Below are positions 3,574-42,259 of a stretch of DNA of 42,932 nt, piece after piece (the stretch's first letter is position 1; the number at the start of each line of letters is the position of its first letter). Made by a program: the position numbers and the translations under genes. The notes beneath the pieces are model-generated. The model made no database searches, was not told where the DNA came from, and was given only the letters and a program-made list of their open reading frames with translations. Source of the stretch: Deltaproteobacteria bacterium (GTDB taxonomy: Bacteria > Desulfobacterota > GWC2-55-46 > UBA9637); the NCBI GenBank assembly GCA_030690165.1, contig JAUYHF010000027.1, forward strand, positions 1 to 42,932, in the 5' to 3' direction.

Positions 3574-5208
3574 TTACCTCAATAATTGTGTGATTTTCTT
3601 TCGGTCAGCTAATTCCCCAAATGGGAAATCTCTCCTGTAAGGCGCCACAGCAATGCTTATATTATCAACCTCTTTCAGCTTTCTTAAAAGGCCTATCACC
3701 TCCTGTTCCGGCAACGGCTGCGAGGTGTTCCAGTTAATCGTCTGAAGTTTCATAAGAACCTTTTGCGGCTCGGAAACCTTCCTGACAGCCTCATTTGCCA
3801 TCTTTTCTATCAGGCCGTGTATTTCATAAGGCTCTTTTTTTAACTCTCCCTGCATCTGCCGGTGATATGCCATTATTGCATAATAATCAAAATCCAGCTT
3901 TACAGCCTCGTCAAGACTCTGGGAAAGCCACGCCATCGCATAAGGGGGATTTGAAACGCTTTCATACATCAGATTTATTGCAAATTTTACATCCGGCCTT
4001 TTGTTTTTTACAGCAGCCCTAATCCTTTTTGCAACATGGAGCAGCCTTTTATTTTTCCATGCCGCCCATCTCCAGAATTCATCGGTATAGCCGGCAGTAT
4101 ATCCTCCACCGCCGTTTTCCGACACATTGCTGTATAATTCATCTGCTGCAAACCTCCTGCCATTATCCTTTTCAAACATCCTCTCCGCATAAGGCCCAAA
4201 GCCCTCGTTATGTTTTAAAACAAGGTCATCCTGAAAGAGCACACCATCAACAGGATATTCTGCAAGGTCGCTAAAGAGCCTTTCCAGATGGTAAACAGCC
4301 CTTTCGTTAAAAAGGTCAAGCCCTCTGCATGGGATAATACCTTTTGTATGAAAGTCATACTCCTTGCAATGAAGGTCTTTTCTATCTTCCAATCCATAGT
4401 CAGCATATTTTGTCGTCATCCACGCAAACACCTTCAACCCCTTTTTATGCGCCATATCAAGAACAGCGCCTAATATATCCTCAATTACAGGAGACTCTTT
4501 GGTTTTAAAATAGACCCCCGACCTATCCTGCGGATGGGTGCCCCGGTTTTTTGGCTTTATAATAAATGGATAAAACCGGTCTCCGTTGTTATGGAAAACC
4601 CTCAGGATGATAGTATCTATGCCGGCAGCCTTCAAACTATCTATCTCGCTGTCAACCTCTTTATAATCCTTTCCTTCAAAAAGGGCAACCTGAACAGCCC
4701 TGATTGCCCTTTCCTCTTGATGTAAAGACGCAGAAGGAATTTTTATTATCGGAAGTTTCGGGATAGAAAAAAGGGCAGCCTCTTTTAACCTGGTTTTGGC
4801 AATCCCCAACTTTAACAATGCTTCTTCTTTAAGTTCATTAGCAGGGAAATTTTTAATGAACTGCTCAAATTGGTTTTTAGCCTCTTTGTACAGGGATGCT
4901 TTCAGATACGCATCGCCAATCATATATTGAGCCTGCGGGGTAACGGGGCTTCCGGGAAAATATTCTATCACCCTGCCGAACTCCCTTGCACTAACAGCAT
5001 AATGTCCCTGCTTATAGAGAAACATGGCGTAATTGAACTGGTCTTTGTCGGTTAGAAAAGGGCGGGATTCTTGGGCGGTAACTACAGGGAACAGGGACCA
5101 GGGGTCAGGGATCAGCAGGAAAAAAAACAAAAAAATCCCTTTTATGGCATTAGACCATCCTGACCCCAGACCCCAGACCCCTGGTCCCTGTATTTTAAAA
5201 TAACACAT
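3574..5208 (-). CDS. TPR repeat + GHL13/PgaB C-terminal-like glycoside hydrolase
   Basis: A 544-aa exported protein. Residues about 24-45 are a hydrophobic signal segment, 50-150 are tetratricopeptide repeats of the BamD/YbgF type, and 165-540 match the glycoside-hydrolase-like domain found at the C-terminus of PgaB (GHL13). The latter has a barrel core with the acidic motif LFQDD in the catalytic region. In PgaB this domain cleaves partially deacetylated poly-beta-1,6-GlcNAc; here the deacetylase domain is replaced by TPRs. The role is probably exopolysaccharide processing or export in the periplasm. The ATG at 5208 has AAGGAG 8 bases upstream. That ribosome site lies inside a copy of the radA 3' end, and the signal-peptide codons lie inside an inverted repeat. 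Confidence 0.82.
   Translation of the reverse strand: MCYFKIQGPGVWGLGSGWSNAIKGIFLFFFLLIPDPWSLFPVVTAQESRPFLTDKDQFNYAMFLYKQGHYAVSAREFGRVIEYFPGSPVTPQAQYMIGDAYLKASLYKEAKNQFEQFIKNFPANELKEEALLKLGIAKTRLKEAALFSIPKLPIIKIPSASLHQEERAIRAVQVALFEGKDYKEVDSEIDSLKAAGIDTIILRVFHNNGDRFYPFIIKPKNRGTHPQDRSGVYFKTKESPVIEDILGAVLDMAHKKGLKVFAWMTTKYADYGLEDRKDLHCKEYDFHTKGIIPCRGLDLFNERAVYHLERLFSDLAEYPVDGVLFQDDLVLKHNEGFGPYAERMFEKDNGRRFAADELYSNVSENGGGGYTAGYTDEFWRWAAWKNKRLLHVAKRIRAAVKNKRPDVKFAINLMYESVSNPPYAMAWLSQSLDEAVKLDFDYYAIMAYHRQMQGELKKEPYEIHGLIEKMANEAVRKVSEPQKVLMKLQTINWNTSQPLPEQEVIGLLRKLKEVDNISIAVAPYRRDFPFGELADRKKITQLLR
5091..5190. repeat. Inverted repeat of the CAGGGACCAGGGGTC type inside a coding start
   Basis: CAGGGACCAGGGGTC near 5091 is matched by its exact reverse complement, GACCCCTGGTCCCTG, near 5176-5190. 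Related GGGTC/GGATC repeats lie between the arms. This repeat family is normally intergenic; here it is translated as residues about 6-40 of the TPR/GHL13 protein. Confidence 0.6.
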
Positions 5209-5302
5209 CCATCATCTCCTTAACCTGGCTGGAATCAGGAATCAACCGTTTTTTGAGGACGGCCTCATAGTGCGTCAATATATCATTCGGGATAAGAAGC
5301 AT
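5195..5302 (-). pseudogene. N-terminal remnant of an integron-type tyrosine integrase fused to a copy of the radA tail
   Basis: A 35-codon frame from an ATG at 5302. Residues 1-26 (MLLIPNDILTHYEAVLKKR... then IPDSSQ) resemble the N-terminus of environmental integron integrases, where EAVLKKR.IPDSS precedes a KWLRYYLDFC stretch. Residues 27-35 (VKEMMDVLF) are exactly the last residues of RadA, so the frame switches at the boundary of the 29-bp repeat. The catalytic R-H-R-Y domain is absent and no integrase can be made. The orientation, divergent from the cassettes, is that of intI next to attI. The integrase assignment rests on remembered family similarity over 26 residues. Confidence 0.6.
5197..5225. 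repeat. Left copy of the 29-bp direct repeat (radA 3' end)
   Basis: Identical to 7511-7539 at 28 of 29 positions; the one difference (5204 against 7518) is a silent Val codon change in the RadA frame. It carries the Shine-Dalgarno site and ATG of the TPR/GHL13 gene. Confidence 0.85.
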
Positions 5303-5313
5303 GCGATGTTGAG

Positions 5314-5464
5314 CAGAAAACTGTCCAATATGTAAAATGGAATGTTATCCAACTGCATAACTATAATCAAAATAGATAGTTGGGTCAACTTGAATTTATA
5401 TTTTTATTGAACTGCTCGTAAAATTCTGATAAAGTCCAGAAAACTGCTCAATATATTGTTATGC
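5314..5464 (+). other. attI-like region with paired 19-bp repeats and promoter
   Basis: CAGAAAACTG-TC-CAATATG (5314-5332) recurs as CAGAAAACTG-CT-CAATATA (5437-5455), 16 of 19 matching and directly repeated. These could be integrase-binding repeats of an attI site. A GTT-type crossover core (GTTATGC, 5458-5464) abuts the first cassette. A cassette promoter is possible: TTGAAC (5407-5412), 17 bases, TAAAGT (5430-5435). The region between the integrase remnant and the first cassette has the length expected of attI. The assignment is by position and repeats, not by match to a known attI. Confidence 0.5.
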
Positions 5465-5479
5465 CCATCATGATGAAAT

Positions 5480-6133
5480 ATGAAATTTGAATTCTCACCA
5501 AAGGGTGTCCGCGCCTCCGATGAAGAAATGTTGGCGGATATAGTCAGCGTTGCGAAGGCGCTCGGCCGGGATACATTGGCCTATAACGAGTATTCTGATG
5601 CTGGTAAATATGGAGCAGACACCGTACGCCGTCGCTTTGGCTCTTGGAATAACGCCATAAAACGCGCGGGCTTGAAAATACTCAAGATTCATGGCATCCC
5701 CGATGAGCAGCTTTTTGAGAACCTTCAAGAAATCTGGATTCGGCTTGGGCGCCAACCGTCGCGTGATGCGCTGAAACGAAGCAACTCAAAATTTGGAAGC
5801 GCTACATACGAGGCTCGGTTTGGCACCTGGAACAAGGCACTGATGGCATTTGTTGCCTGGGCCAATAAGGATGGAGCCAAAATGCCTGCACACCAATCAA
5901 GGGATAGAACACCACAAGCCGCTCCTCGTTCTATAAATCTAAGACTCAGGTTCCTCGTCATGAAGCGAGATGACTTTAAATGCCAATCCTGTGGACACAG
6001 TCCTGCTACCCATCCAAACACGGTTCTTCATATTGATCATATTCAGCCTTGGTCAAAGGGCGGGAGCACCGATCTGAAAAATCTACAGACGCTTTGCTCT
6101 AACTGCAATCTAGGAAAAGGGGACGTTATTTGA
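5480..6133 (+). CDS. HNH endonuclease with two homing-endonuclease-associated repeats (integron cassette)
   Basis: A 217-aa protein. Two HNH-associated repeats of about 50 residues (15-64 and 76-125) each end in RFG-S/T-WN-N/K-A. These helical repeats are thought to bind DNA. The C-terminal HNH nuclease has zinc ligands C168, C171, C206 and C209, the HIDH active-site motif (184-187) and the NLQTLCSNC stretch. It probably makes site- or structure-specific DNA cuts; defence and homing are both possible. It is followed 13 bases after the stop by an attC-like palindrome and so reads as the first cassette of the array. The ATG at 5480 is the only sensible start and lacks a strong Shine-Dalgarno site. 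No partner methylase is present. Confidence 0.85.
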   Translation: MKFEFSPKGVRASDEEMLADIVSVAKALGRDTLAYNEYSDAGKYGADTVRRRFGSWNNAIKRAGLKILKIHGIPDEQLFENLQEIWIRLGRQPSRDALKRSNSKFGSATYEARFGTWNKALMAFVAWANKDGAKMPAHQSRDRTPQAAPRSINLRLRFLVMKRDDFKCQSCGHSPATHPNTVLHIDHIQPWSKGGSTDLKNLQTLCSNCNLGKGDVI

Positions 6134-6146
6134 TGACGCTCCTAGG

Positions 6147-6224
6147 ACATAACCATCGGATAGAGCCGCCGGGCGCTCTGGCGGAAATCTTTATAGCGCC
6201 CGCGGCTCATCCCCTGCGTTGGGC
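6147..6224 (+). other. attC recombination site 1 (after the HNH cassette)
   Basis: A 78-bp imperfect palindrome. The left core is ACATAAC (6147-6153, one base off RYYYAAC) and the right core is GTTGGGC (6218-6224, a perfect GTTRRRY). Inner arms GGATAGAGCCGC and GCGGCTCATCC pair with one bulged A. The central AGCCGCCGGGCGCT (from 6164) pairs with AGCGCCCGCGGCT (6194-6206) with one extra base. Unpaired extra bases on one arm are typical of attC. Confidence 0.75.
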
Positions 6225-6348
6225 GCCAGCGGTAACCACAGGATTCGAAGTTTTGCCAGTGGGAACAAAAAATCCCTTGTCGGAGGTCTGTGCATCCTAG
6301 CTAAAGTATTATTTCAGTAAAGCTTGAATCGAAGAATAGGAGAAGCTA

Positions 6349-7104
6349 ATGTTTGGATGGCTGGCAAGCCCCGAGGCGTGGATAGCGTTGGGCACATTAA
6401 CCGCGCTAGAGATTGTATTGGGTATCGATAACATTATTTTTATCTCGATTCTGGTAGGTCGTCTTCCCCAGAATCAGCGCGCTTTCGCGAGAAAAGCGGG
6501 TCTTGGTCTCGCCATGATTACGCGCCTGGCTTTGTTGTTCTCTATTTCCTGGGTGATGGGATTAACCGAACCGTGGTTAACGGTATTGAACCAAGAAATT
6601 TCGGGGCGCGATGTCGTGCTGATTGGGGGCGGCCTGTTTCTTCTGGCCAAAGCGACTCATGAAATCCATAACAGCCTGGAAGGGATGGAAGATAGTGGTA
6701 ACGCGGTTGTTGCCACCAACATGGGAATGGTGCTGACACAGATTGCGATTCTGGATATTGTTTTTTCACTGGATTCGGTGATAACGGCTGTTGGGCTGGT
6801 CGAGCATGTTTCCATCATGGCGATAGCCATTATCCTCGCGGTCGTGGTTATGTTGATGGCCGCAAAATCCATAGGGGATTTTGTCGATGAGCATCCTACT
6901 ATCAAGATACTTGCGCTTTCGTTTCTGATCCTAGTGGGTGTCACACTTATGGTTGAAGGTTTCGATGTACATGTTCCGAAGGGTTATATCTATTTTGCGA
7001 TGGCATTTTCCGTCGCCGTGGAGATGCTCAATATTCGAATGCGCAGAATACGGGCGGAGCCGGTCAAACTGCACAAGCAGATACGCGACACAGACGGAGG
7101 CTAA
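6349..7104 (+). CDS. TerC-family integral membrane protein (integron cassette)
   Basis: A 251-aa protein with about seven transmembrane helices. The paired acidic motifs of the family are EIVLGIDN (E21, D27) and DIVFSLDS (D136, D142). TerC relatives include Mn2+ exporters such as Alx and MeeF and tellurite-resistance proteins; metal-ion export is likely but the ion cannot be read. The ATG has AGGAG 7 bases upstream. It lies between two attC-like sites and so forms a cassette with its own ribosome site. No terA/B/D/Z partners are present. The codon and base use is more G+C-rich than the host operons. Confidence 0.88.
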   Translation: MFGWLASPEAWIALGTLTALEIVLGIDNIIFISILVGRLPQNQRAFARKAGLGLAMITRLALLFSISWVMGLTEPWLTVLNQEISGRDVVLIGGGLFLLAKATHEIHNSLEGMEDSGNAVVATNMGMVLTQIAILDIVFSLDSVITAVGLVEHVSIMAIAIILAVVVMLMAAKSIGDFVDEHPTIKILALSFLILVGVTLMVEGFDVHVPKGYIYFAMAFSVAVEMLNIRMRRIRAEPVKLHKQIRDTDGG

Positions 7105-7163
7105 TTAGGGAAGCTACCCAGACGTTGAACGTCAAAAACTATGGGGCCCAGAAGGAAACTGGC

Positions 7164-7230
7164 GCCCAACAACGCCTTGCAGCTGACGCGCAAAAAAAGC
7201 GGCGCGCACCGCTGAAGGCTAGCATTAGAC
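7164..7230 (+). other. attC recombination site 2 (after the terC cassette)
   Basis: A 67-bp imperfect palindrome. The left core is GCCCAAC (7164-7170, a perfect RYYYAAC) and the right core is ATTAGAC (7224-7230, one base off GTTRRRY). Inner arms include GCCTT/AAGGC and AGC.TGA.CGCGC against GCGCG.CACCGCT, around an A-rich loop. This organisation is that of a short proteobacterial-type attC. The altered first base of the right core may weaken recombination. Confidence 0.75.
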
Positions 7231-7277: not shown

Positions 7278-7391
7278 ATGAGTTGGATGATATTTGGGCA
7301 GATCGCGTTGTTGATCGTCATATTTGCATTCGTCACGACCTTAGTGAAGTGCATGCATGACACCTACTGCAATAAGTGCAAGAAGGAGTAA
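7278..7391 (+). CDS. Small membrane protein, 37 aa, in the cassette array
   Basis: A short frame with a strong GAGGAGG site 6 bases before the ATG. It has one transmembrane helix (about residues 4-24) and a C-terminal Cys-bearing tail with three cysteines (KCMHDTYCNKCKKE). The tail might bind a metal or redox partner. It follows attC site 2 and would be the third cassette, but no attC follows it, so the array is truncated on this side. The ribosome site and composition make it likely to be real; the function is unknown. Confidence 0.6.
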   Translation: MSWMIFGQIALLIVIFAFVTTLVKCMHDTYCNKCKKE

Positions 7392-7432: not shown

Positions 7433-7508
7433 GCTCACCGGCGAATGACCTCTTTTCTTGCCGGATCATCAAGGCTTGGCAGGGAAAACAGATATAAACT
7501 TCTGACCT

Positions 7509-8864
7509 CTAAAATAATACATCCATCATCTCCTTAACCGATGTTACGCCAATAAGGTTAAGCGAAGACTTGTCTTTTATCCTTGTCAGATTCTCTTTTG
7601 GAAGGATGCACCTGTCAAAACCTAATTTTTCCGCCTCATTTATGCGGGGCTCTGCCTGGCTGATCCCCCTGATCTCGCCTGCCAGGCCCACTTCTCCAAA
7701 CACCACCGTCTTCTGCGCTATCGCTTTGTCAAGAAAGTTTGAAGCAAGAGAGGCTATTATGCCGAGGTCTATGGCAGGCTCTTCAAGCCTTATCCCGCCC
7801 GTCACCTTGAGAAATATATCGTGGTTTGTAATGTTAAGCCCGCCTTTTTTTTCAAGCACAGCCACCAGCAGAGAAACCCTGTTGTAATCAACCCCAACCA
7901 CTGTTCTTTTTGGAATCCCGAATATGGTCGGACATACAAGAGACTGAATCTCCACAAGGATGGGCCTGGTGCCTTCAAGGCTGGATACAACAGCAGACCC
8001 TGACGCATTTTGAGGCCTCTCTGCAAGAAAAAGGGCGGACGGGTTTGCAACCTCAAAAAGCCCTTTGTCCTGCATCTCAAAAACCCCTATCTCCATTACA
8101 GAGCCAAAGCGGTTTTTTACAGCCCTTAATATCCTGAACTGGTGCCCCCTGTCGCCCTCAAAATAGAGCACAGTATCAACCATATGCTCAAGGACCCTCG
8201 GTCCTGCAATAGAGCCGTCCTTTGTCACATGGCCCACAAGAAATATCGGCATGTCCATACCCTTGGCATTGAATATCAATTGAGATGATGTCTCTCTGAC
8301 CTGACTGACGCTGCCCGGCGATGACTCAAGTGTCTGTGTATATATGGTTTGAATGGAATCTATTATTACAATACCCGGCTTAAGTTTTTTTACGCTGTCA
8401 AGTATCCTTTCTAATGTATTCTCTGCATATATAAAAAGATTTTCTGATAGGACACCGAGCCTCTCGGCTCTTATCTTTGTCTGTTTAGGAGATTCCTCGC
8501 CAGAGACATATAAAACCTTATGTCCGCTATCTGCAATCTTTCCCATTGCCTGAAGCATCAATGTTGACTTGCCTATGCCTGGGTCCCCGCCTATAAGTAT
8601 TGCAGAGCCAAGGACAATGCCGCCGCCAAGAACCCTGTCTAACTCCCCTATGCCTGTCTTAAGCCTGTCCTCTTCCTTCACCTCAAGGGTTGTAATGGGC
8701 TGCGGGGAAGAGCCGCCTTCAAAGACCTTTAACCCCTTCTTCTCCTCAAACAACCTTTCTTCCACAAAGGAGTTCCACTGATTGCAGTCCGGACACTTCC
8801 CCATCCATTTCGGGGATTTAAAACCGCAGGACTGGCATGTATATACGGTTCTGAGTTTAGCCAT
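7509..8864 (-). CDS. radA: DNA repair protein RadA
   Basis: A 451-aa ATP-dependent branch-migration protein that processes recombination intermediates. It has a C4 zinc finger (C10, C13, C24, C27), Walker A GGDPGIGKST (92-101), the RadA signature KNRFG (250-254) and a C-terminal Lon-protease-like domain. It is full length for the family. Its last 28 bases are duplicated at 5197-5225, so the island to its left inserted at the radA 3' end without breaking the protein. No Shine-Dalgarno sequence precedes the ATG. A TATAAT (8906-8901, minus) could be its -10 box with a roughly 30-base leader. In the ancestor it probably overlapped the TPR/GHL13 gene. Confidence 0.95.
   Translation of the reverse strand: MAKLRTVYTCQSCGFKSPKWMGKCPDCNQWNSFVEERLFEEKKGLKVFEGGSSPQPITTLEVKEEDRLKTGIGELDRVLGGGIVLGSAILIGGDPGIGKSTLMLQAMGKIADSGHKVLYVSGEESPKQTKIRAERLGVLSENLFIYAENTLERILDSVKKLKPGIVIIDSIQTIYTQTLESSPGSVSQVRETSSQLIFNAKGMDMPIFLVGHVTKDGSIAGPRVLEHMVDTVLYFEGDRGHQFRILRAVKNRFGSVMEIGVFEMQDKGLFEVANPSALFLAERPQNASGSAVVSSLEGTRPILVEIQSLVCPTIFGIPKRTVVGVDYNRVSLLVAVLEKKGGLNITNHDIFLKVTGGIRLEEPAIDLGIIASLASNFLDKAIAQKTVVFGEVGLAGEIRGISQAEPRINEAEKLGFDRCILPKENLTRIKDKSSLNLIGVTSVKEMMDVLF
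7511..7539. repeat. Right copy of the 29-bp direct repeat (radA 3' end)
   Basis: This is the functional radA C-terminal coding end (VKEMMDVLF) plus its stop. It pairs with 5197-5225 as the other boundary of the island. Confidence 0.85.
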
Positions 8865-12025: not shown

Positions 12026-12938
12026 CTTCCTTAAAATAATCTACAGTATGCCTTAATCCCTCCTCAAGAAATACCTGAGGCGACCAGCCAAACTCCTTTT
12101 TTGCCTTCTCAAAGTCAATTACACTTCTTTTTTGCTCCCCGCTCTTTGGGGGGCCGTATCCTTCTCCAACGTTGACGCCAACAATATTAACAAGCTCTTT
12201 AAACAACTTCTTTATATGGACTTCCCTTCCTGTGCCTATATTAAAAACCCCTCCATCGTTATGAGACAATGCAAGACAATTAGCCCTTACAACATCTCCA
12301 ACATACACAAAATCCCTTGTCTGCATCCCATCGCCGTTTATCAAAGGCTGTTCACCTTTAAGGAGTTTTCTGGTAAAGATAGCCACAACACCAGCCTCCC
12401 CATGAGGGTCTTGCCTTGGCCCGTACACATTGGCGTATCTTAGAATAGTTGAATTCAGGCCGTGTGTATTTTTATAAAAAGAGAGATAGTGTTCACAGGC
12501 AAGCTTTGCTATGCCGTAAGGACTTAAAGGATTTGTAGGATGTGATTCTTTCGCTGGAAATTCTTTCTGCTCTCCGTATATTGCACCGCCTGTGGAGGCA
12601 AATATAAAACCCTTTACCCTGCCCCTTACACAATTCTCAAGGAGGTTCAATGTGCCTATTATATTTATTCTGGCGTCCAACATAGGATCCGCCACTGATT
12701 TTCTAACATCCATCTGGGCCGCATGATGGTTTACAGCATCAAACTTTTCATCCTTAAATAAATCCCTTAATTCTCCTGCGCCAATATCCAGCTTTAAAAA
12801 CCGCGCCTTTGGGTTAATATTCTCAGGCTTGCCTGTGGAAAGGTCATCAGCAACAGTTACTTCATGCCCTGCATTGATATACGCATCAACCACATGGGAG
12901 CCGATAAAACCAGCTCCGCCTGTTACAAGTATATGCAT
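12018..12938 (-). CDS. NAD-dependent sugar-nucleotide epimerase (GalE-like)
   Basis: A 306-aa extended SDR. It has the NAD motif [10 protein letters not shown] (6-15), the catalytic Ser/Thr region STGGAIYG (115-122) and the YGIAK Tyr/Lys pair (Y141, K145). The likely reaction is 4-epimerisation of a UDP-hexose, UDP-GlcNAc or UDP-pentose, to supply the polysaccharide. Substrate cannot be fixed; the neighbouring UDP-xylose synthase makes a UDP-xylose/arabinose epimerase worth considering. AGGAGA precedes the ATG. It is the last gene of the long minus-strand locus and is separated from the UXS gene by 19 bases. Confidence 0.87.
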   Translation of the reverse strand: MHILVTGGAGFIGSHVVDAYINAGHEVTVADDLSTGKPENINPKARFLKLDIGAGELRDLFKDEKFDAVNHHAAQMDVRKSVADPMLDARINIIGTLNLLENCVRGRVKGFIFASTGGAIYGEQKEFPAKESHPTNPLSPYGIAKLACEHYLSFYKNTHGLNSTILRYANVYGPRQDPHGEAGVVAIFTRKLLKGEQPLINGDGMQTRDFVYVGDVVRANCLALSHNDGGVFNIGTGREVHIKKLFKELVNIVGVNVGEGYGPPKSGEQKRSVIDFEKAKKEFGWSPQVFLEEGLRHTVDYFKEAG

Positions 12939-12957
12939 TCTTCGTCTCCTATCGCCA

Positions 12958-13896
12958 CTACCCCATTGCCTGCAATCTGCCTTTAAAATACTCCACGGTC
13001 TTGCTCAATCCCTCACTTAAACTTATCTTCGGCTCCCAATCCAGCTTTTCTCTCGCAAGGGTTATATCAGGCCTTCTCTGCATCGGGTCATCCTGCGGAA
13101 GGGGTTTGAATACAATCTTTGCCTTTGTGCCGGTAAATTCTTTTATCTTCTTTGCAAAATCAAGTATTGTATATTCGTCAGGGTTGCCGAGGTTTACAGG
13201 GCCTATAAAACTGTCCTTATTCATCATTTTTATAATCCCATCAACCAAATCATAAACATAGCAGAACGAGCGGGTCTGACTACCGTCGCCGTAAACTGTA
13301 ATATCTTCTCCCTTCAATGCCTGCACTATGAAATTACTTACCACCCTTCCGTCATTAAGCGCCATCCTTGGACCATAGGTATTGAATATCCTGACTATCC
13401 GTATATCAACCTTATTCTGCCTGTGATAATCCATCATAAGGGTCTCTGCAACCCTTTTCCCTTCGTCATAACAACTCCTTATCCCTATGCAATTCACATT
13501 TCCCCAGTACTCCTCCTTTTGCGGGCTGACCTTTGGATCGCCGTAAACCTCCGATGTGGATGCCTGCAAAATCCTTGCCCTGACCCTTTTTGCAAGGCCG
13601 AGCATATTTATCGTCCCCATTACGCTTGTCTTTGTTGTCTTTACAGGATTATACTGATAATGCACCGGCGAGGCAGGACAGGCAAGGTTATATATCTGGT
13701 CAACCTCCAATAGGATTGAATTTGTAATGTCATGTCTTATAAGCTCAAATCTGTGATTATCCATAAGGTGAGTTATATTATCCTTTGAGCCTGTGAAAAA
13801 ATTATCCAGACAAAGCGCCTCGTGACCTTCGCTCAAAAGCCTTTCACAAAGGTGCGAGCCTATAAAACCAGCGCCGCCTGTCACCAGTATACGCAT
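12958..13896 (-). CDS. UDP-glucuronate decarboxylase (UDP-xylose synthase)
   Basis: A 312-aa SDR that converts UDP-glucuronic acid to UDP-xylose via a 4-keto intermediate. Visible features are the NAD motif [10 protein letters not shown], the UXS-specific [14 protein letters not shown] stretch (70-84), TSEVYGDP (114-121) and the catalytic pair Y143/K147 (YDEGK). Length is typical of the soluble bacterial enzyme. Its start overlaps the stop of the UDP-glucose dehydrogenase gene by one base (TAATG), so the two consecutive steps are translated together. Confidence 0.93.
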
Positions 13897-26120: not shown

Positions 26121-26127
26121 AGGTCTT

Positions 26128-26205
26128 GATTACACAGATTGTAGAATACGATTACACCGATTAAGACATCTGTGTAATCTGCCTTTTTAATCTATGTAAT
26201 CGGAG
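26128..26205. repeat. Gene-free copy of the GATTACACAGATT palindromic repeat
   Basis: Two forward and two reverse copies of GATTACACAGAT-like words flank a small centre. Bases 26167-26205 match the repeat at the start of the GxxExxY gene (32095-32131); the first 16 bases are identical. It looks like the GxxExxY locus without its gene. Confidence 0.7.
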
Positions 26206-26227
26206 ATTGTGGTTTTTCAACAATCTC
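26203..26227. terminator. Hairpin over the GT2 stop codon
   Basis: GAGATTGT (26203-26210) and ACAATCTC (26220-26227) pair perfectly and enclose the GT2 stop codon. In the direction of transcription the loop contains TTGAAAAA. A similar hairpin covers the stop at 32148. Confidence 0.45.
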
Positions 26228-31671: not shown

Positions 31672-31728
31672 GATTGCACAGATTTTTTATCACAGATTAC
31701 ACAGATTAAAAATCGGTGTAATCAAAGA
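31672..31728. repeat. Left flank of the GxxExxY gene: GATTACACAGATT palindromes
   Basis: Contains GATTGCACAGATT, GATTACACAGATT (31695-31707) and its imperfect inverse AATCGGTGTAATC (31711-31723), which form a hairpin. Matching words occur at 32095-32131 and 26128-26205. Confidence 0.65.
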
Positions 31729-32097
31729 CTAATTTATTAGTCGTTTTACCTGACAACTCTTGTTGCCAAAATTGACTAATAACCCAACCTTTAGATTAGA
31801 TGCTTTTAAATAAGAAAGCACCTGATATTTGAAGACATCAGGAATATTACCTGCTAATGCCTTAATTTCAACTATGGCCTCGTTTTCAACAACCAAATCC
31901 ATAACCAGATAACCAACTTTGTTATTCTGGTAATACACCTCAAATCTTTTCTCTGTTTCAAATTTTAACCCTTCTTGATTGAAAGCAAACTTTAAAGCCG
32001 TATGATATATCTTTTCATTAAATCCTGGTCCCAATTCCGAGTGAACTCTATAACAACAAGCTATTATTCGTTCAGTAAGTGGGTCTCTATTCTTCAT
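31729..32097 (-). CDS. GxxExxY protein (PDDEXK_3 nuclease-like)
   Basis: A 122-aa protein with the family signature GFNEKIY (25-31) and a PD-(D/E)XK-like pattern: D67 in VMDLVVEN and E77-I-K79 in VEIKA. This family has a predicted nuclease fold and unknown role. The ATG lies inside a palindromic repeat (ATTACACAGATG) with no Shine-Dalgarno sequence, and repeats of the same kind follow the gene. It has no functional link to the polysaccharide genes on either side and seems to be an insertion into the locus. Confidence 0.85.
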   Translation of the reverse strand: MKNRDPLTERIIACCYRVHSELGPGFNEKIYHTALKFAFNQEGLKFETEKRFEVYYQNNKVGYLVMDLVVENEAIVEIKALAGNIPDVFKYQVLSYLKASNLKVGLLVNFGNKSCQVKRLIN

Positions 32098-32131
32098 CTG
32101 TGTAATCTGCTTTTATTATCTGTGTAATCAG
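32095..32131. repeat. Right flank of the GxxExxY gene: CATCTGTGTAATCTG repeats
   Basis: Two copies of ATCTGTGTAATC (32096-32107 and 32118-32129). The first 16 bases are identical to 26167-26182. The start codon of the GxxExxY gene is the last part of this repeat. Confidence 0.7.
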
Positions 32132-41539: not shown

Positions 41540-42259
41540 TTAATATACAATCCTTAAATTAAAATACCTGCCAATGGGTTCAATGATAGATTTTAGTTCA
41601 TCCTCACTTCTTTCTTCTAAATTTGAAAAATCAATTTTAATCTCATTTATATTCATTTCAGAACATTCATAAAAATTTATTAGCATATCTGTTAAAAAGG
41701 CATGCATTGCCTTTGGATTAGCTTTTTCATATATACCACATAAATCAATTATTGCTTTATCTCCCTTAACTGTTAATATTCCTTTGAATTTCTCTATATA
41801 AATAAGAGAATCTATAAAATCCCTGAATGGCTTAATCCACATGTATGATGCAACCAGTACACAAGAAATAATCCCAGCAATCCGAAAGGTTTTGTTAGTG
41901 GCGCCAAAAATAAATAATATTCCTGGGGATAATGCAATAGAAAGTTGAGATAAAAAGGTTTCATAATCTTTATTGAACTTGCGGCATATCTTTTCAATCA
42001 ATTTAATAACCACAAGAGATAAAATTAAACCTGCCAGAAATCCTAAAATAATCCTAATCTCAATCCCCTCAAACCTATTATACCTTTTTACCCATCTAAT
42101 CTGTGTGGCAAGTATGATGGATATGAAAAAGATATAAACCCCTGTTTGTTCAATAAATTGTTTTATGCTTTTACCTGCCTGTTCAGAGAATTGTTTTATC
42201 CATTCCTTTGCCTGTTCAAAGAATTGTTTTATACCTTCCCTAATTTGGGCCATGTCCAT
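41540..42259 (-). CDS. Membrane protein with N-terminal 11-residue repeats
   Basis: A 239-aa protein. Residues 5-36 carry three imperfect repeats of the IKQF-x-EQA type, encoded by 33-bp repeats (about 42140-42245), likely an amphipathic helix. Four or so transmembrane helices follow (about 40-60, 75-95, 110-130, 135-150). A soluble alpha/beta C-terminal domain (about 155-239) has a STAS-like layout. I use the ATG at 42259 with GGAGGAG upstream; the GTG at 42265 is less well spaced. No named family is recognised. Confidence 0.6.
   Translation of the reverse strand: MDMAQIREGIKQFFEQAKEWIKQFSEQAGKSIKQFIEQTGVYIFFISIILATQIRWVKRYNRFEGIEIRIILGFLAGLILSLVVIKLIEKICRKFNKDYETFLSQLSIALSPGILFIFGATNKTFRIAGIISCVLVASYMWIKPFRDFIDSLIYIEKFKGILTVKGDKAIIDLCGIYEKANPKAMHAFLTDMLINFYECSEMNINEIKIDFSNLEERSEDELKSIIEPIGRYFNLRIVY

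Follow-up and report, generated by a model that had tools for sequence, protein, structure and literature searches.

Loss of the integron integrase, clusters of attC sites without an integron integrase (CALINs) and a CALIN with an attI of its own have already been described (PMC2426708, PMC9024848, PMC12444791, PMC9892861), and attI sites other than those of class 1 have been little characterised (PMC9024848). The locus studied here lies in a window of 42,932 nucleotides, by which I mean the whole stretch of DNA that was analysed (contig JAUYHF010000027.1), from the assembly of a deltaproteobacterium (GCA_030690165.1, here G000). Like the CALINs delimited by IntegronFinder, it has two attC sites with cassettes close together (6147-6224 and 7164-7230) and no integron integrase nearby; unlike these, it keeps its own attI/Pc region and a 5' stub of intI. 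The region is very probably a decayed sedentary integron between radA and a gene of the GHL13 family, and it is regarded as an integron remnant, not as isolated attC sites, because of the attI/Pc region, the intI remnant and the repeat of the radA tail.

Two attC sites and their cassettes

The cassette part of the locus consists of the following features.

5459-6218 (+): gene cassette 1 (HNH), starting at the attI core G^TTATGC (5458-5464); end of attI from model R1
5480-6133 (+): HNH endonuclease gene with two homing-endonuclease-associated repeats (PF18780, E 1.4e-31; PF01844, E 1e-13)
6147-6224 (+): attC of the HNH cassette (attC covariance model, circle fold)
6219-7224 (+): gene cassette 2 (TerC), its start complementary to the start of its attC
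6349-7104 (+): gene for a TerC-family integral membrane protein (PF03741, 149 bits, E 1.2e-43)
7164-7230 (+): attC of the TerC cassette (attC covariance model, circle fold), 3' core imperfect
7278-7391 (+): 37-aa open reading frame 3' of the second attC; no family, no attC match after it

The initial annotation had read two palindromes as attC-like and named an attC covariance model as the way to check them. Both lie exactly where it placed them, with the cores ACATAAC and GTTGGGC at 6147-6224 and GCCCAAC and ATTAGAC at 7164-7230, one core of each site being imperfect. A hand-made scan for cores plus stems ranks the site at 6147-6224 top of the window, but over the 43 kb its best score was reached in 8 of 60 shuffles and is not significant; inside the insert the result is significant, the best site being matched in 3 of 400 shuffles and two sites in 8 of 400. 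As this plain scan is too weak genome-wide, I built a covariance model, trained on 13 attCs of class 1 integrons on plasmids and of integrons in other bacteria, and searched the window with all filters off. With a short calibration, which makes the E-values rough, the top match is 7164-7230 (35.8 bits, E 1.2e-6) and the second 6147-6224 (29.6 bits, E 3.8e-5), with boundaries identical to those of the palindromes, and no third significant attC was found in the window, where the next match has E 1.8.

The 3' half of an attC in an array is part of the next cassette, so that the form in the excised circle is the meaningful one for a folding test. In this form the HNH attC folds with z-scores of -4.6 and -5.1 for the two strands and the TerC attC with -4.5 and -3.8; both show outer and inner stems, a spacer and an extrahelical base, and no fold of this quality occurred in 200 shuffles. 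The paired arms and extrahelical bases of the original reading are also seen in the covariance-model alignments. In array form, where the following cassette takes the place of the R' half, the fold of the TerC attC is for that reason unconvincing (z -0.3 and -0.45); the circle form resolves this. The parts that define an attC (RYYYAAC/GTTRRRY cores, L and R arms, extrahelical base) are thus present in both sites with one imperfect core each; that the 3' core of the TerC attC, ATTAGAC, departs from GTTRRRY counts against the integron reading.

The ends of the cassettes point the same way. The start of the TerC cassette, GTTGGGCGCCAG (6218-6229), is complementary at 12 of 12 positions to CTGGCGCCCAAC (7159-7170) at the start of its attC, and the start of the HNH cassette at 6 of 7 positions to the R'' ACATAAC; from this complementarity the cassettes are delimited as 5459-6218 and 6219-7224. 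The attC-like reading, and with it the order of an HNH cassette followed by a TerC cassette, is therefore borne out by the independent attC model, the folding of the excised circles and the complementarity of the cassette ends. Judged from these sequence analyses, both palindromes are integron recombination sites that end two captured gene cassettes. The 37-aa open reading frame behind them may well be a truncated third cassette without recognisable attC; that it lacks one counts against the integron reading. The window also holds dispersed inverted repeats of the GATTACACAGATT type (26127-26207, 31689-31712 and 32091-32130), probably a small mobile repeat, and, at the contig end, a 33-nt repeat in three tandem copies (42141-42239).

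Both genes read in cassette orientation, as first noted, and they are indeed richer in G+C (HNH 48.8%, TerC 49.7%) than the remaining window (40%) and than the neighbouring host genes measured (42-47%), only modestly so with respect to radA. The TerC protein scores 149.3 bits against PF03741 (gathering score 27.8 bits) and stays below the NCBIfam cut-offs for the Mn exporter subfamilies (YkoY 63 vs. 138.5 bits, YjbE 51 vs. 134.8 bits); Rfam gave no match at gathering or relaxed thresholds, in particular no Mn riboswitch 5' of its gene. The HNH protein scores 51.6 bits against PF01844 (gathering score 21.4 bits). PADLOC gave no specific whole-system match for the cargo and no defence-family match at all for TerC, and for the HNH protein weak matches to the generic HNH domain only (best E 2e-10, a type II restriction endonuclease profile, residues 144-214). 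Among solved structures none matches TerC, and those matching the HNH protein are confined to the HNH domain. No attC surrounds the best TerC relative in the plasmid collection (Aeromonas, 69%), and the integron loci compared hold no further TerC or HNH cassettes. That the cargo serves in stress or defence, as suggested initially, is a conjecture, if a plausible one, since other cassettes in the host genome carry a TdeIII-type restriction enzyme, a ParE-type toxin-antitoxin pair and hemerythrin.

The attI platform and the intI remnant at radA

Upstream of the cassettes, and at the far end of the insert, the following features were recognised.

5196-5225 (no strand assigned): left copy of the radA 3' tail, 30 bp, at the start of the GHL13 gene; 29 of 30 positions identical to 7510-7539
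5226-5302 (-): intI remnant, first 25 codons (MLLIPNDILTHYEAVLKKRLIPDSS), then truncated (IntI N-terminus alignment)
about 5303-5463 (+): attI with divergent promoters (model R1), repeated in G000; same element upstream of full intI genes
5360-5388 (-): PintI-like promoter TTGACC-17-TATAGT, 10/12 to consensus, conserved in the attI alignment
5407-5435 (+): Pc-like promoter TTGAAC-17-TAAAGT, by direct reading, conserved across attI copies
7510-7539 (no strand assigned): right copy of the direct repeat, inside the genuine radA 3' end; the adjoining 7492-7509 is common to G005

When the insert was compared with the host genome by BLAST, copies of the segment 5302-5462 with about 74% identity appeared on other contigs, and every copy has GTTRRRY and an open reading frame behind it; in the window the element ends at GTTATGC, the core of the first cassette. 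I searched 80 integron-integrase loci from public genomes with model R1, which matches 15 of them. The strongest matches lie at loci with full intI genes (L120, E 2.8e-28; L115, E 7.4e-26), the 13 others being weaker, and L120 has four attCs besides the element and intI. Because all of these matches sit directly upstream of intI on the opposite strand, the repeated element is taken to be the attI. An attI next to intI, as in a complete integron, is found in this family upstream of real intI genes, and of the intI gene itself (TIGR02249) only 25 N-terminal codons are present at the window locus. The Pc-like promoter appears positioned to transcribe the HNH and TerC genes; it is only 8/12 to consensus, which counts against the integron reading, and below the cut-off of the promoter scan, and the copy on contig C44 has TTGACA.

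Against the IntI N-termini of four loci (L094, L097, L115 and L120) the remnant gives local scores of 70-79, starting from residue 1 or 4, while shuffles score 23 +/- 3.5, more than 13 standard deviations lower; by tblastn it has E about 1e-4. It runs into the second copy of the radA 3' end (5196-5225). No intI above the family cut-off was found in the host assembly, which is 100% complete, and the expected position of intI lies inside the contig both at the radA site and at the locus on contig C8 (L070). At the latter only the IntI C-terminus SKTVKEARSPLDF* survives, 157 nt to the left of attI, so that C8 is, as read from its sequence, a second in-place deletion of intI in this genome. Among the relatives, intI is present in three copies in G002 (two with in-frame stops), two in G004 and one in G005. 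In intact relatives that carry the R1 attI family, IntI is about 440-475 aa long, and the window remnant falls within its additional N-terminal stretch.

The insert (attI, HNH cassette, TerC cassette and the remnant open reading frame) sits between radA and the GHL13 gene. In the congeners G002 and G003 radA abuts the GHL13 gene without an insert, the two overlapping in G003. G005, from another genus of the family, has the same junctions, here on two separate contigs; the intI stub and attI are likewise the same and the flanking repeats measure 48 bp (3 mismatches), but the first cassette is another one, an antitoxin-like open reading frame. As G005 shares the junctions and differs in this cassette, the platform at radA is older than the strain and its cassettes have changed. 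Repeats of this kind were sought at the other host attI loci and were not found. The 30-48 bp repeat and the position beside radA are not accounted for by the integron reading and count against it, as does the lack of a second strain of the same species that shows movement of the cassettes.

attI-like elements across the host genome

Model R1 matches 11 places in the 2.2 Mb host genome, none of them with intI: five full-length with E <1e-31, three with E <1e-11, one with 3e-7 and two near 6e-5. Besides that of the window there are the following.

contigs C15 (two), C44, C55, C8, C19, C4, C9, C52 and C60 of G000 (L067-L075): ten further attI-like elements, most of them directly 5' of a cassette-like open reading frame

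Elsewhere the model finds 6 in G151, 5 in G005 and 0-4 in other genomes, which are lower bounds, the comparison being biased because the model was trained on G000 copies. In a small attI tree with mostly weak support, the G000 copies are scattered among attIs from other genomes, some of these linked to intI. A single recent burst of attI copies within the genome is therefore not favoured; several separate integrons, each losing its intI, fit the tree better. On C55 (L028:1449-2126, L249-L252) the integron unit lies exactly between genes for an ABC ATPase and a permease, both intact, which overlap in relatives, and its cassette is antisense to the operon.

Three observations may be added here. 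At L026:1686-2504 a TdeIII-type restriction endonuclease is the first cassette behind an orphan attI. Contig C51 of G000 (12030-13435, minus strand) has four attC-model matches in 1.4 kb and no attI-model match, a CALIN of another type. In L079 (G005, contig C108) the attI is interrupted by a palindromic repeat of roughly 100 nt.

Readings of the locus and known systems

Alternatively, the palindromes could be transcription terminators or chance hairpins of intergenic host DNA without any tie to integrons. A part of the HNH attC (6166-6184) does read like a terminator, and some shuffles reach similar scores in the simple scan; yet the independent attC model returns the exact boundaries with E-values of 1e-5 to 1e-6, the cassette ends are complementary and an attI heads the array. 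The attC model and the attI together refute this idea, to which I assign next to no probability. A foreign integrase could also have put the cassettes at a non-classical secondary genomic site (attG), so that the locus would be a plain CALIN lacking its own platform. The genome has no intI, and the attG literature cited within PMC12444791 reports this origin for cassettes that lie behind host genes. However, the first cassette is preceded by an attI-family element of about 160 bp, from a family found upstream of real intI genes, and the IntI N-terminus adjoins it, so that at the radA locus this explanation is refuted unless attI and the intI remnant arrived by rearrangement, and it is highly improbable.

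The flanking repeats lend somewhat more weight to an integrative element that targets the radA 3' end through a tyrosine recombinase of its own, with the integron parts as cargo and the 30-48 bp repeats as attL and attR. Direct repeats of the radA 3' end do flank the insert (48 bp in G005, 30 bp remaining in the window), and both flanking genes are intact. Against this, the repeat adjoins the truncated intI, no other integrase or element genes are present and the comparable insertion on C55 has no such repeat, which makes this origin rather unlikely.

For the decayed integron, I propose that an integron integrase would have recombined attI x attC at G^TT and so brought in circular cassettes behind a Pc-type promoter, the small remnant first (now outermost), then TerC and then HNH. 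The intI gene would later have been deleted down to its first 25 codons and the array thereby frozen, with the Pc-like promoter still placed to transcribe HNH and TerC, and the cassettes would now be immobile unless an integrase is supplied in trans. It is possible, though doubtful, that the whole genome works as a distributed integron, with about 11 scattered Pc-attI platforms without intI, one to few cassettes each, that exchange them only with an integrase in trans. If so, a transient integron or a related cell would be the source of the integrase, and such exchange would have left its trace in the radA platform, whose attI is the same in two genera while the cassettes differ.

What began as a pair of palindromes spotted by eye is now verified as an integron remnant of an uncultured lineage, and a sequence model is supplied for an attI family. 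The parts of the window locus are already known, as integron decay or as a CALIN with its attI retained. What is unusual is how many attI platforms without integrase occur in one genome, and the open-access literature, which was the scope of the search, gave no report of a genome with about eleven. These platforms could be a natural record of repeated acquisition of integrons followed by loss of the integrase, and with them it can be asked whether the promoters of cassettes persist once the integrase is gone.

Integrons with long IntI (clade 15 of PMC2426708, about 120 aa longer) resemble the relatives with an R1 attI in the length of IntI and its N-terminal stretch. Decayed integrons with a pseudogenised intI (Nemergut 2008, PMC2426708; Xanthomonas, PMC12444791) have likewise kept the platform with a small frozen array and an inactivated integrase, whereas in the window intI is almost entirely deleted. 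The CALIN with its own attI in the Shewanella prophage M16-3 (PMC9892861) similarly combines a cassette array and an attI without an integrase of its own, but that region also holds a complete integron, whereas no intI was found in the host assembly. Finally, Xanthomonas (PMC12444791) has a single site at ilvD, in contrast to the about 11 attI-like platforms of the present genome.
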